Shown one piece after another: positions 53,846-62,530 of a stretch of 64,000 nt of DNA; position 1 is the first letter of the stretch; each line of letters starts with the position of its first letter. The position numbers were made by a program, and so were the translations under genes. This stretch comes from Corallium rubrum (Eukaryota > Cnidaria > Anthozoa > Scleralcyonacea > Coralliidae). The stretch is from assembly GCA_964035015.1 (NCBI GenBank), contig CAXIUP010000007.1, positions 585,501 to 649,500 on the forward strand. Direction: 5' to 3'. The notes beneath the pieces are model-generated. The model ran no database searches and had not been told where the DNA came from. It saw nothing but the letters and a program-made list of their open reading frames with translations.

Positions 53846-55464
53846 TAGGATGGGATTTCATCACTAGAAATAGGTTAACGATAAGTAGGAATGCGCGGGC
53901 GGGTTATCTCTTACTGGGACGTCACGGGAAAACACCCACCGGGATAACTATGAGTCTACAACGGCAAACCTTGCTGGGGTCATCCACACACGTGAGCAGC
54001 ATTCTTCGACTGATCGGTTGTTGTGTCAGTCCACATTCCAAAGCAACGCGGTCGTTGCTTTGGTTGAGAGTGCAATGATACCACCTAGAACCGAAATGAT
54101 TTTAGAAGGGAAATTGGCCAAAAGTGCCAACGGCAAAATAGGCATGATAGAGCCACGTTCGGGTATCAATAATGATGTCCGGCAGGGGTTTAGTTTAGCA
54201 CGGGTTGTGGTCAAACCCGACCAACATAGGATTGTGCCTTTACGCGTTATTAACATGTCACAGAGTCCCATTGAATTAGCCGCAGGTGAAAATATTGCGC
54301 AGTTTTGTCCCTTGGTTGAGTCATGCTCCAAAGTTTTAAACACCAAACCGGATGTCTGCGGAGCGGTGAAAAGTTGAGTTAAAAAATTTTACTGATAAGC
54401 TTGACTCTGTAATTGATAGCTCTCTTGCCCACGGTGACAAAGAGCGTGTACAGCGTCTCTTGTGCAAGTTTTTGGATGTTTTTGACGAGAGTTTAGGCCA
54501 TACAACACTACTCACGCACAAGATTGATACCGGCAATAACCCACCGGTTAAACAGCAACCGCGCCGTTTACCCTATGTACACCGCGACGAGTCTAATCGA
54601 CAAATTGAGAAATGTTAGAGCAAGGTGTCATACGTCATAGTACAAGTGCTTGGTCTAGCCCAATTATTTTAGTCAAGAAAAAGAATGGCGAACTTTAGTC
54701 AACGGCGCCAGCTACATTTCAACGCACTATGGACATCGTGTTGTCCGGATTGACCTATGCTATTCGTTTGTGTTACCTTGATGATGTCATTGTTTTCGGT
54801 CGCCACATCAATGAGCATTGTGAACGATTAGAAACCGTTTTACTTAGACTAAGACAGCACAACCTCCGCGTCAAATTATCGAAGTGTAAGATCGCCGCGC
54901 AGCAAGTTGCATTTTTAGGACACGTTATTTCGAAGTCCGGAATTCAGCCTGACCCCACTAAAATAGCGGCGGTAAGCGACATCCCTCGACCACATTCAGT
55001 GAAAGAAATTCGAACTTTTTTAGGTCTCGCTTAGGTCTCGCTGGCTATTACAGAAAATTTATCCCAGGATTTGCGATGGTCGCTGCGCCACTTGTTCGTC
55101 TCACTAAAAAGACAACGACTTTTTCCTGGACAGAAGAATGCGACACCTCTTTCTCTAAGCTAAAATCTTTGCTTTGTTCTGCGCCAATCTTACGTTATCC
55201 TAAGTTCGACCGCGAATTTATACTCCAGACCGACGCTTCTGATTTCGGAGTAGGCGCGATCTTATCAAAGATCGACGATAACGGGCTCGAAAAAGTGGTT
55301 GCATATGCGTCAAAGGCCCTTTCTGCACGACAGAAGACGTTTTCTACAACTGAAAAAGAGGCTTACGCTATCGTTTTCGGTACCCAGCAGTTTCGCGTTT
55401 ACTTGCTTGGGCGTCATTTTCGAATTGTTACGGACCATAACGCGTTACGGTGGCTTCATAGCAT
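53846..55464 (+). pseudogene. Ty3/Gypsy Pol: protease end, RT, RNase H start
   Basis: GWDFITRN (protease end), then after a shift an inter-domain segment with KIGMIEPRSG and VRQGFSLARVVVKPDQHRIV, then RT. RT is damaged: after ILVKKKNG about 70 codons of fingers/palm are absent before TFQRTMDIVLSGL; YLDDVIVFG carries the catalytic Asp pair, followed by FLGHVISKSGIQPDPTKIAA and the RNase H domain (ILQTDASDFGVGAIL, VAYASKALS, TTEKEAYAIVF, TDHNALRWLH). A 9-bp duplication GTCTCGCTTAG-type near 55,025 shifts frame. RNase H is interrupted at 55,465 by the 7.06-kb transposon. Confidence 0.85.
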
Positions 55465-55476
55465 TAGTCAGGCAGA

Positions 55477-55634
55477 TTTGATTTGATTTGATTTGATTTA
55501 TTAAATTCGCCAAAGAAAAAATGTACATTACAAATACAAAAAAACCTACAAAACTACCCTAGAAAAAAAAATGGCAGGGACACCACAACAGCAATCGCCA
55601 ATTACCGTGGGCCCTGATAGACGTACTCAAAAAG
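55477..55634 (-). mobile_element. Short retroposon-like insert with (CAAAT)n tail
   Basis: Reading the minus strand, the segment ends in GCGAATTTAATAAAT followed by about five AATCA units, as in LINE/SINE 3' ends. It splits the left inverted terminus after the first 12 bases. Confidence 0.55.
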
Positions 55635-55989
55635 GTGAATACTTACGGTAGCTTGGGACAATTCAATTTTATGATAGAAATGTGGTCTGGAACATAGTTA
55701 ACCAATTTCTGAATGTTGGACATGCTGATATTACTTGAGTGATTAATTCAACAGCATTTTCCGAGTAGCGTTGTGATTAAAATTTCGAAACAAAATGGTT
55801 GACAGAACGAAGTGAGCCCACGGTGTTTCGGCCAGCGGGTGCGAAGACTTCAAGTAATCTATTTAAAATGCCAACTTAATCTTGCATGCATGTCATGCCA
55901 AAACGAGGGTTGTTTTGTTTGGAAAGTGATAAAAATAGCGATAAATTAAATTATGTCAAGCAAATAAGCGAAAGACAACAGATAGTGGT

Positions 55990-58900
55990 GCTTGCATAAT
56001 TCACTGTCGAGATGGCACGAATGAAGGCCTAGTGAAATTCAGCTTAATATCACGGGAAGCAGTTTATATAAAGCTGCAAAGATAAGAAACGACGGTGACG
56101 TTATTGGAATTCTTGATTCGTATGGAGAAGATTTACCAGGACAAGAACACGGCTTTCACCGGAAATGCTATCAGAACTACACCCACAACAAGGCGTTGAA
56201 AAAGCTTAGTGACAGTGGAGAAGCAAGTGAGTCTGAAAGTTGCCGGGTATCAACCAGAAAAACAGATCGCGGAGGTATGAATGGATGATTACATTGCAGG
56301 CTACAGTAGAAAGAGAGGACTTATTACAGGGAGAAAAATAGCTTAGTGACAGTGGAGAAGCAAGTGAGTCTGAACGTTGCCGGGTATCAACCAGTATTAA
56401 AAACAGATCGCGGAGGTATGAATGGATGATTACATTGCAGGCTACAATAGAAAGAGAGGGCTTATTACAAGGAGAAAAATAGCTTAGTGACAGTGGAGAA
56501 GCATGAAAGTGAGTCTGAACGTTGCCGGGTATCAACCAGTATTAAAAACACATCGCGGAGGTATGAATGGATGATTACATTGCAGGCTACATTGCAGAAA
56601 GAGGACTTATTAGTGGAAGTTAAAGAGAGGCCGAGCTTAATGAAGGGAGAGCTTTATTAAACGGAGGTTTATTAGCTAGCCTAGAGGGTGGGGCTCAATA
56701 GAGGAAATACCGTAAATATTGTAAATGTTGCAAATAATTATATTGTGTAATAATTATATGCGTAATAATTATAAATAATTTTCGTGGTAATATATTATTC
56801 ATTATTATTTCAACTTTATTGAATTACATTATATTGTATTCCAAATTCGTCTTTGCAATCCAGGAAAAATATTAGCTGACTATGAATGTTGTATTTGTGG
56901 AAAAAAGAAAACTGCAAAGGGTGGAAGTGGGTATGAGCAACTTCAAAAATGTGAAACTGAAAATGGTGCTCGAACTTTGCAACAGGCAGCTGTGATACCA
57001 GAAAACACGTGTTTGCACGCAGAATTGGCGGGTAATGATTGGCAAACCATAATTGCGAGGGAGATGTTCTACCATCGGACATGTTATCGCGAAATTACCA
57101 GAAAACGAGATGCAAAACAGGCCTCTCAAGACGCCACCGATAAGGTATTCTTGGAGCTTACCGCTGTCATAGAGGAAAAAATAATTATTGGTTGTGAAGT
57201 GATACGTATGGCTGATCTAGCAGAGCGGTTTGCGGAAATCCAAGCCCAACTATCTTGTGAACAAAGTCCATCGTCGGTTAAAATACAGAGCTTGAAGGAA
57301 AAGATCCAAAAATGGTTTGGTGCAAAAGTTGGATTCTGGTGAACAAGCTACGGTAGCGAGTATGGTTGAAAAAGGGCAGAAACTTGCTAATTGCAGATGG
57401 GAGGAGAAGACCTTAGAGGAAAAAACACGTGAAGTGGCTCACGAGATTCGCAATGAATTATTGAAAACTCCAGCTACCTTCAGCAGTTGGCCACCTTCCG
57501 AAGCCGAGGTTCTATTGAAAGTAACAAACATCCCAACTTTAAAACGTGTTTATTGCAAGGTATCCTTTCAAAAAGGTCAAAAAATCTTCGAAGGTAAAGC
57601 GTCTGGTTTCATCGATTGGGCAAGACCTCATTTATCACGTCAACAATGGTCAAAAGAAGACATCAAAACACATAATTTTTCCATTTTCAGTAAAAAGAAA
57701 AACGGGTTCGAAGGCGGTAATCAACTGGACAAGAAAGTTTGGCCATGGGATATCGTATGACGATGTTCTGATACTGGAAACCCATCTGGCTATGGAACAC
57801 ACCAAAGACGAAGTGCACAGGTCATTCGCTCCCGCTTTAATCCAACCATCTCGCTTTGTTACCTTTGTTTGGCACAATAATGATATTAACCCGGAAAGTC
57901 TTAAAGGCCTTAGTCTGCATTGCACCAATGGCATTGTTATAGTCATCGAGAATTGTTTTAATTCAACCCGAGCCCACCGCTACAATTACTTCTCCACAAG
58001 CAGCGCAAAACCAAAGATAAAAAAGATTCCAGACCATCCCGATTGAAATGCCAGCGTAAATCCAGATAAAGAGACAGAATACCGAGAACCAGAGCAATAT
58101 TCAACGGAATATGTATGAGGAGGAAGAGCGACGTTCCGCGCAACTGACACTATGTGGATTGTTGCCAAATGCCAAGCCAGTAAATTGGACAGGCTTCAAC
58201 TACATGTTATGCGACAATGACAGCGATGACTACCACAAGATTGCGTACCTACCAGCAATCAACCAATCCCCGTCTTCTCACGACACAGTGTTGGAACTTC
58301 TCAGTCAATCAAAACTAAAAGCAGAGAAGCTTGGATTAACTGAAACAGATGTTGTGCTTGATATGGCAATCTACGCAAAAGCAGTTGAAATCATTATCAA
58401 CCCAAGATACCTCGATCTGAAGAAGTTCATTGTCCTGCGTCTTGGAGCGTTCCACACGATGTGTATATTTATAGCTGTTATTGGAAAAAGATTCGGCGGT
58501 ACTGGTCTTCGTGATGTGGTGATTGAATCTAATCTACTTGGTGAAAGTTCAGTCGAGCAAATGCTTAAAGGAAAGCATTATAACAACGCAGTGAGAGTCC
58601 TAAAATACCTCTACGATGCCACGAAGAGACACATGATTGAAAGCTCTGATAAACGCGTACGTGATCAATCAGACATGTTGGATATCAGTTACAAAGAACT
58701 TACCAACTCAGCTAAATTTATAAGCTTCCTTTCTTCACCGACAAAGAACTCCATGAAGATTTTAACACAAAATCATAAAGAAATTGTTGATCAAATTCAG
58801 ATTTATGAAAACTCTCTCTTGCAAGGTTCTCTTGGTCCGACTGCTTCAGTATGGTCATCTTTTTAAAAGATGGTGCAGATATTGCTCGATTTTTTGCGAT

Positions 58901-61120
58901 CAATCAAACTGGGAGAATGGAAACTGCACCTGCAGTCCACAGAGAACATGCTACCTTGGATGTTTTCTTATGATCGTCCAAACTACGCTCGATTCCTGAC
59001 CTATTATTGGATTAACATGCAAAAACTGCCGGAAACACATCCAGCAATTTACGAACAATTCGAAATTGGAGACTTCTCAGTGCGCAGACAGCACGGCAGG
59101 TTCAACAAGATACCATCCGACCAAGCGATAGAGCAGACCATCAACAGAGAGCAAAAATGCGCTGGAGGAATAACTGGGTTTAGTACATCTGAAGGAACTG
59201 TACAAAGATGGGTTCTTACAAGTCACGTTGCTGCAAAATGTCAATCTAAAATGGAGGAATTCCTGGGAATGTCTGAGGCCAGCAGTGTAACGAAAGATTT
59301 ATCAACGAAGAGAATACTATTCGACGAGGAATGTGTGATGCGCAGTTATGAACTGATGAAGGATTGGGGGACACCTTTTAAAGAAAACAACCGCCTCGTA
59401 CAACTTAGTTCTGGAACAGAATGCAACGACGAGATCCAAGACGACATGGTGAATGCAGAAAAGAAATGGGAAGAGGCATTGCCGGATTTCATCAAGAATA
59501 GAATAGAATAGAATCCAATGAAAAGGACTTGTATTGTCCACTTCCAAAGATGAAGCTGAAAACATTTGCTGCGCTGAAAGCGAAAAAATCTTGCAAAATT
59601 AAAGATAAGACTTTAACTTTGAAAGCTGATAGAGATGTCTTTGCAAGACTTCTGGTAATATGTGGTAAACGCGAGGTTTCCTTGAAAGAAGTGCTTACCT
59701 TCTCACTCGGTCCTATTCCATGGTCATTGGCAACATCAGATGGAGGTTTTGTAAGCTGCTCGAAGCTATCGAAAATGATGTTGAAGATCCATTTGTGGCG
59801 ACACTTCCGGAGCACTGTATAAGAGTTTATGACGGCATGGTCATTATTCAACAGCTTCCTTCGCTCAACTTGGAAACTTTCGGTGAAATGTCAGAATATG
59901 TGTTGAAGCGTATAACGACCAATTCAGCTAAAGTCATATATTTTGTCACTGATCAGTATTTAGAGGGTTCACTAAAGGGCAGTGAACGGCAGCGACGGGC
60001 GGCAGCTGGGAGTATTTGTGTCCAATTGACTAGAAGAGATCAGAAATGTCCGAAGCAATTTAAGAAGTATCTAAGCGACGGTGGTAACAAAGTCGACTTA
60101 GTAAGATTTCTACTGAATGACTGGTCGGATCAGGGGCGCTTCAAACACATCATCGCAGGTCGGCTTATATTTTTTACTGTGGAGAGTGAATGCCATCGTT
60201 TAGAGGTATCAGAAGATATTCTTTCGTGCAGAGAAGAAAGGCCCCTTTTTTCGGAGCAGGAAGAAGAAGACACAAAGATGTTTCTGTGCTGTCAACACGC
60301 TATCCAAAGATTTTCCCAGTATGAAAATATCTGCATCTCAACAGTCGACAGTGATGTTGGAATCCTTGCAATCTACTATAAAGATAGAATCCAATGCAAT
60401 CTGTTTGTTGAAATCGGATCAAAAGGAAAAAAGAGAATTTTGTCAACATCCAAGATAGCGGAAAGTATCGGTAAAGAAATGTCAGATGCTCTTCCCGCGT
60501 TACATGCTATAAGTGGTTGTGATTCAACCATTGCATTTTATGGAGTGGGAAAACGAAAGGTGTACAAGATTGTCAAGAGCTCTGGCAGCTTTAAAAATGC
60601 TCTAGCAGAACTAGGAGACAGCTTCGCTTTCAACGAGAGTCTTTTCCCAGTGGTACAAGAAATGGTTTCTGAATTTTATGGTGTTTGTGGCTGTGCCAGC
60701 GTAAACGAAGCACGCTACCGTCGATTCTGTGCTAAAAGCAAGGCTCCAGAACCTCAACAACTACCACCAACGAAAGACGAGTTGCTTCTACACTGTCAAC
60801 GTGTAAATTATGTTACATGCGTTTGGAAATCAGCACTGATAGCCAATTTCAATCCCCCAAAACCAGACGGACATGGTTGGTGTAGAATAAATGGCCTTTT
60901 GGATGTGAAATGGATGAGCCAGAAGCCTGCACCAGATTCACTATTGGAGTTTTTGTCATGCGGATGCAAGAAATCAGGGTGTCGTAACAACATGTGCGTC
61001 TGCGTCGCTACTGGTTTGAACTGCACGGACATCTGTGGTTGCAACACGTGCTCCAATACCCCACCTGATGAAGATGATCTAAATTCATACGAACTGGTTG
61101 CTGGTGACACAGAAGACTAG
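55990..61120 (+). pseudogene. Multi-domain gene of the 7-kb transposon: Cys/His fingers, XPG/PIN-like domain, CXC domain
   Basis: Pieces in order: FHRKCYQNYTHNKALKKL (about 56,150-56,200); DYECCICGKKK ... FYHRTCYREI (56,876-57,102), a Cys/His finger; a helical segment; FSVKRKTGSKAVINWTRKFG HGISYDDVL (57,660-57,770); GFNYMLCDN, VVLDMAIYAKAVEI, LRLGAFHTMCIFIAVIGKRF (58,190-58,500); GPIPWSLATSDG (59,710-59,745); EEEDTKMFLCCQHA, STVDSDVGILAIYY, ALPALHAISGCDSTIAFYG (60,260-60,545); a Cys-rich CXC end CGCKKSGCRNNMCVC ... CGCNTC (60,960-61,055). The DSDVG + HAISGCDS pairing resembles the acidic active site of PIN/XPG-type nucleases. Frame changes near 57,340, 57,700, 58,060, 59,515, 59,750 and a TAA at 58,864 break it. 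It lies alone in the element, so it is the transposase candidate, which is inference. Confidence 0.65.
56205..56600. repeat. Three tandem repeats, about 132 bp, at an exon edge
   Basis: AGCTTAGTGACAGTGGAGAA, GTTGCCGGGTATCAACCAG, CATCGCGGAGGTATGAATGG and ATTACATTGCAGGCTAC recur three times. The unit includes the end of the first coding block and a GTATG donor-like site, so an exon edge was amplified. Confidence 0.8.
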
Positions 61121-61135
61121 TATTTAACTGTTTCG

Positions 61136-62042
61136 ATAGCTGATTGAACTGTCCAATGAACCGTTCTGTTGCTCCTTCATCCTGTCTATAAACTGATTGA
61201 ACTGCCCAATAAACCGTTCTGTTGCTCATTCATCCTGTCTATAAACTGATTGAACTGCCCAATGAACCGTTCTGTTGCTACTTCATGCTGTCTATAAACT
61301 GATTGAACTGCCCAATGAACCGTTCTGTTGCTCATTCATCCTGTCTATAAAGTGATTGAACTGCCCAATGAACCGTTCTGTTGCTCATTCATCCTGTCTA
61401 TAAACTGATTGAACTGCCCAATGAACCGTTCTGTTGCTCATTCATCCTGTCTATAAACTGATTGAACTGCCCAATGAACCGTTCTGTTGCTACTTCATCC
61501 TGTCTATAAACTGATTGAACTGCCCAATGAACCGTTCTGTTGCTCATTCATCCTGTCTATAAACTGATTGAACTGCCCAATGAACCGTTCTGTTGCTCAT
61601 TCATCCTGTCTATAAACTGATTGAACTGCCCAATGAACCGTTCTGTTGCTCATTCATCCTGTCTATAAACTGATTGAACTGCCCAGTGAACCGTTCTGTT
61701 GCTACTTCATCCTGTCTATAAACTGATTGAACTGCCCAATGAACCGTTCTGTTGCTCATTCATCCTGTCTATAAACTGATTGAACTGCCCAATGAACCGT
61801 TCTGTTGCTCATTCATCCTGTCTATAAACTGATTGAACTGCCCAGTGAACCGTTCTGTTGCTACTTCATCCTGTCTATAAACTGATTGAACTGCCCAATG
61901 AACCGTTCTGTTGCTCATTCATCCTGTCTATAAACTGATTGAACTGCCCAATGAACCGTTCTGTTGCTCCTTCATCCTGTCTATAAACTGATTGAACTGC
62001 CCAATGAACCGTTCTGTTACTCATTCATTCCGTCTATAAATT
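61136..62042. repeat. 53-bp minisatellite, about 17 units
   Basis: A unit beginning ACTGATTGAACTGCCCAATG repeats at exactly 53-bp spacing, with two main variants (GCTCATTCATCC and GCTACTTCATCC). It lies between the gene and the right terminus of the 7-kb transposon. There are no spacers, so it is not a CRISPR array. Confidence 0.95.
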
Positions 62043-62530
62043 CCAGTACAACGGTTTGTTATATGGCATATGTCGAATAATTGTGTACTACTATACAAGT
62101 TGGGTACAGTCGCAGTCATGGTCAGCAAAAATACGGAAATCATTTCAAATCAATCCAGACAGTACACAGATAGAGATCAACACACGATGCAATCAAGGTA
62201 AAAAAATTTTAATTGACATATTTGGTATTATATGGCCGGAAAGTACGCATTTCATTAACGAAATTAAGTAAGATTACTTGAAGTACCACAGGAATGTTGT
62301 CCGCGTTGACCAAAAAATCGCGGGCTCACTCCTTTTTTAACTGCCATATTGATTTACAAAGACAGAGCCAGAGTGTCGAAATAAAACGTTGTTGACTGGA
62401 GACCACAAGTAATATCAACACGTCCAACATTCAGAAATGTGTTCCTTGGTGATCGAACTATAGTTTTATGGCAAAATTGAATTGTCCCACGTTACCGTAA
62501 GTTTTCACGCACCTATCTGCCTGACTACAT

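Follow-up and report, generated by a model that had tools for sequence, protein, structure and literature searches.

The nucleases of Academ DNA transposons, a superfamily reportedly described together with its AcademX lineage by Kapitonov and Jurka in 2010 and by Kojima in 2020, are of the XPG type. One account separates AcademX elements, which encode a nuclease and create target duplications of 3 or 4 bp, from AcademH elements, which encode a helicase and create duplications of 9 or 10 bp (PMC10045372). Two further papers list Academ among the DDD/E superfamilies (PMC9587614) and give a mean length of 5,565 bp for bivalve Academ consensus sequences (PMC10294476). The literature searched yielded no account of an XPG domain in an Academ protein and no paper uniting four of six CXC/XPG/DDE terms, and PMC12730594 does not mention Academ. 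The locus compared here lies in a 64,000-nucleotide stretch of the Corallium rubrum genome (GCA_964035015.1, contig CAXIUP010000007.1, positions 585,501 to 649,500), hereafter the window, and consists of a 7,063-bp DNA element at 55465–62527. It is very probably a decayed AcademX-type cut-and-paste transposon, whose single protein joins a DDE transposase to a FEN1/Exo1-type nuclease and would act by the mechanism proposed below.

The element is a precisely bounded transposon and had been correctly read as such in the initial annotation. Its terminal inverted repeats, TAGTCAGGCAGA (55465–55476, plus strand) and TCTGCCTGACTA (62516–62527, minus strand), are exact over 12 nt, occur once each in the window and are flanked by the target site duplication CAT (55462–55464 and 62528–62530), with the element interrupting the RNase H frame of a Gypsy retrotransposon. 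Three Gypsy copies elsewhere in the genome, 95–97% identical, run uninterrupted across the site with a single CAT. The 5' terminus recurs in a second copy (C9:1300571) and in a short derivative (L048), while the same 3' terminus is found at loci L032 and L047. The description of the transposon as complete holds for its two ends but not for its gene, which is broken by two or more frame changes and one or more in-frame stops.

Matches to the last frame of the gene number at least 109 across the 474-Mb genome, the survey having scored 88 of 346 candidates. In three further families, at 33–37% identity to the window protein, this gene lies between TAG...CTA ends particular to each family. Family F2 comprises nine copies with the ends TAGTGCATGAGCCAGG and is 35% identical to the window over the last frame; its eight two-ended copies are flanked by ATG, TAA, CTA, TAG, ACA, TTA, TTA and TTT. 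Two copies of F4 (ends TAGGCCGTTTGCTGTGG) lie between AGC and TTT duplications, two of F5 (ends TAGGCCGTTTGCTGTTG) between TTT and ACA, and L048 (C1:9363546-9364707), a gene-less derivative of 1,162 bp with the ends of the window family, is flanked by TTA. Together with the window copy, all 14 two-ended insertions thus show an exact 3-bp duplication, the ends having been sought in two of seven F4 copies, two of six F5 copies and no F3 copies. Left out of this count are a C8 locus without ends in two stretches, the F2 copy on C37 (5' end outside the stretch), L049, L050, L053, L054 and L055 (5' end not found within 2–3 kb), L051 and L052 (5' side without a terminus), and the C217 copy (5' end lost). 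The copy at C9:1300571-1319504, on the same contig as the window, was likewise omitted: its Gypsy flanks and CAT are those of the window, and it is therefore regarded as a duplication of one insertion, enlarged by other inserts and 97–98% identical across long aligned pieces. The interpretation offered in the initial annotation is supported in part.

Close matches to the window gene, among the candidates scored, are confined to C9 and C217. The idea that these are contaminant contigs was rejected, since the large scaffolds also hold related ends and Gypsy copies that are almost identical. The C8 locus (30900290-30901561) holds a relative with an open frame of 1,638 residues, possibly a domesticated gene or part of a longer element. 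Three end-only pairs (L049/L050, L051/L052 and L053/L054), located on different contigs or at distant sites, each share an identical 20-bp 3' flank, a sign that the assembly may contain duplicated or haplotig sequence.

Along the plus strand of the window, the 5' part of the gene holds a first Cys/His module, HGFHRKCYQNYT (56025–56285), similar by eye to a module in intact relatives (A1 consensus). The frame translation then gives a second Cys/His module (CCICGKKK...YHRTCYREI) and, judged by position, the start of a winged helix (56791–57339). The frame at 57543–58043 holds the D1 block, with the first strand of an RNase H fold; the first acid of this block is lost in the window copy and retained in two other copies of the family. 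There follow the D2 block (VVLDMAIYAKA) with a G-x-F-H motif (58060–58863) and a helical insertion with the conserved D-x3-E block (DQAIEQTINRE; 58867–59508). One frame (59502–59819) joins the transposase half to the nuclease half, which comprises a FEN1/Exo1/XPG-type nuclease, its fold and acids taken from relatives, and a C-terminal Tesmin/TSO1-like CXC domain (59669–61117). The CXC domain, already claimed in the initial annotation, scores 27.6 bits against PF03638 (cut-off 23.5). Of the seven nuclease acids, five fall in the block at 60,260–60,560 singled out in the initial annotation and two at about 59,820–59,960.

The F2 copy L033 encodes frames of 964 and 633 residues, and many relatives of the former are single frames about 1,550 residues long. 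Predicted models of relatives place a winged helix at residues 186–276, an RNase H/DDE fold with conserved acids in the N-terminal half, and an Exo1/FEN1-type fold at residues 343–715, with seven matching carboxylates. No part of the nuclease site is missing and it hardly varies; its seven carboxylates match active-site residues of FEN1. The family differs from Exo1, FEN1 and XPG in its low identity (about 15% to Exo1) and in the fusion of the nuclease to a transposase. Similarly, its CXC part resembles that of LIN54 and Tesmin but is a single unit that ends a transposase; lin-54 itself is matched weakly by profile (E 0.044). Among 24 members compared with Pfam at E ≤ 1, 13 matched the CXC domain and six matched DUF6589 (best E 3.7e-5), whereas no P-type transposase model appeared among the 19 families matched and no KDZ (Kyakuja, Dileera, Zisupton) model was hit, the KDZ content of the library being unchecked. 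Searches with the N-terminal half gave no Foldseek match at E 0.001 and no match in a profile search of the PDB.

The N-terminal half has in common with the Drosophila P element transposase (6p5a) the RNase H fold, an aspartate in strand 1, another after strand 4, an H motif after strand 5 and a glutamate in a late helix. P superfamily elements duplicate 8 bp of target, unlike the 3 bp of all 14 insertions here, and the family adds a nuclease and a CXC domain. The motif also differs, being G-x-F-H (G-A-F-H in both the modelled relative and the window) instead of the C/D-x-x-H reported after strand 5 in the P superfamily (PMC8230255, PMC9587614).

Several features agree with AcademX. Both have 3-bp duplications, an encoded nuclease, here predicted to cleave as a FEN/XPG superfamily member from its modelled fold and seven carboxylates, and a DDD/E-type transposase, here predicted from the modelled RNase H fold and conserved acids. 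Element length is also similar, at 6.1–7.2 kb against the bivalve mean given above (PMC10294476). Since nuclease and 3-bp duplications match and helicase elements exist apart from it, the window element is filed as AcademX-type. Membership, assigned by published features, is strongly indicated, though not proven. The families described here are new, and the window element most likely represents a new family within a known kind, ordinary at the superfamily level, rather than a new kind of mobile element.

Helicase-bearing elements are present in the same genome and provide the counterpart. DUF6589, of which no mention was found in the literature searched, has 107 matches, and in each of the three loci examined (L068, L069 and L070) a helicase is encoded on the opposite strand, an arrangement that points to DUF6589 as the core of such elements. 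In one of the three, L070 (1179-8846), the inverted repeat spans at least 40 nt, mismatches allowed, with ends CATTCTCGTTCCCAG, also given as CATTCTCG, and the duplication, ATTTTTTAC, is exact over 9 bp; this element, the only one of the three for which a duplication was found, fits AcademH. These elements resemble the window family in being DNA transposons with the same order of acidic blocks in the transposase core by eye (DN-x-D, DQ, x-x-H, D-x3-E), but have a helicase in place of the nuclease. At another locus (L081:1-6401, on C124), a DUF6589 gene is immediately preceded, on its own strand, by a decayed copy of the nuclease-bearing gene; no helicase was seen there, the stretch stopping about 0.6 kb past the DUF6589 frame. 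The profile scores that link DUF6589 proteins to the window family are weak, and the family assignment goes by published features, so that one may ask whether these elements form a separate superfamily, related to Academ and of the same layout but distinct from Repbase's Academ. This is unlikely, given the block order common to both element types and the agreement of duplication length and nuclease with the published description of AcademX (PMC10045372).

Under the AcademX-type reading, the single gene (about 1,550 residues in intact relatives) would act in cut-and-paste movement as follows. The Cys/His modules and winged helix would likely bind DNA and recognise the ends, and the CXC domain may likewise bind DNA. 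The DDE site would likely cut both ends and join them to target strands staggered by 3 bp, a stagger that would produce the 3-bp duplication. The most likely role of the nuclease would be to trim 5' overhangs or flaps, either at the donor break or at the excised ends. The initial annotation had instead suggested a PIN/XPG-like site as the only catalytic centre; its nuclease is indeed there, complete and nearly invariant, but the DDE fold and acids of the N-terminal half, together with the listing of Academ among DDD/E superfamilies in PMC9587614, lead us to reject this version as very improbable. More tentatively, and with somewhat less than even likelihood, cut-and-paste movement may need two equally conserved sites in one protein, one P-like DDE and one FEN/Exo1, so that end processing or donor repair is built in; related cores would then pair either with a helicase, in AcademH with 9-bp duplications, or with a nuclease, in AcademX with 3-bp ones.

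Related proteins occur as unnamed genes in many animal gene sets, some bearing a name for the CXC domain alone; among the carriers are Paramuricea, Hydractinia, Oculina, Actinostola, Porites, Mytilus, Nucella, Branchiostoma, Nymphon, Epinephelus and Cirrhinus. Such occurrence might suggest a host gene carried as cargo by an unrelated transposon, a notion hardly credible and rejected because the same gene is found in four families with three kinds of ends; moreover, its own protein is modelled as a transposase, a Pfam scan of eight plus-strand frames of the window element revealed no second one, and a non-exhaustive search of further copies bounded by these ends showed no different intact transposase gene. 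By homology, these proteins of cnidarians, molluscs, lancelets, sea spiders and fishes would be explained as transposases, exact ends are now given for four families, and the DDE-plus-FEN architecture poses the concrete question of why a DDE transposase bears a repair-type nuclease.

The longer imperfect inverted arms noted earlier were recovered as four complementary blocks (61 nt at 79%, 52 nt at 81%, 32 nt at 75% and 14 nt at 100%). Their inner parts lie at 55635–55860 (plus strand) and 62271–62508 (minus strand), and their apparent offset is due to an insert of about 140 bp just inside the 5' terminus (55477–55616, edges within a few bases), which the C9:1300571 copy lacks. When the uninterrupted 5' end of that copy is compared with the 3' end of the window, about 230 bp align at 66% identity (95.4 bits); of 193 random 260-bp pairs drawn from the first 54 kb of the window, none scored above 58.3 bits. 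The 3' arm has 40 matches in the genome, many of which stop at the identical terminal base, with the second end resolved for L048 alone. The insert opens with five copies of a 5-bp repeat and resembles a short interspersed nuclear element or another small element in reverse orientation. Two tandem repeats lie further inside: a 141-bp unit in 2.9 copies (56199–56612), present in the C9 and C217 copies as well, and a 53-bp array of 17 copies between the gene and the 3' arm (61140–62040), also present in the C217 copy.
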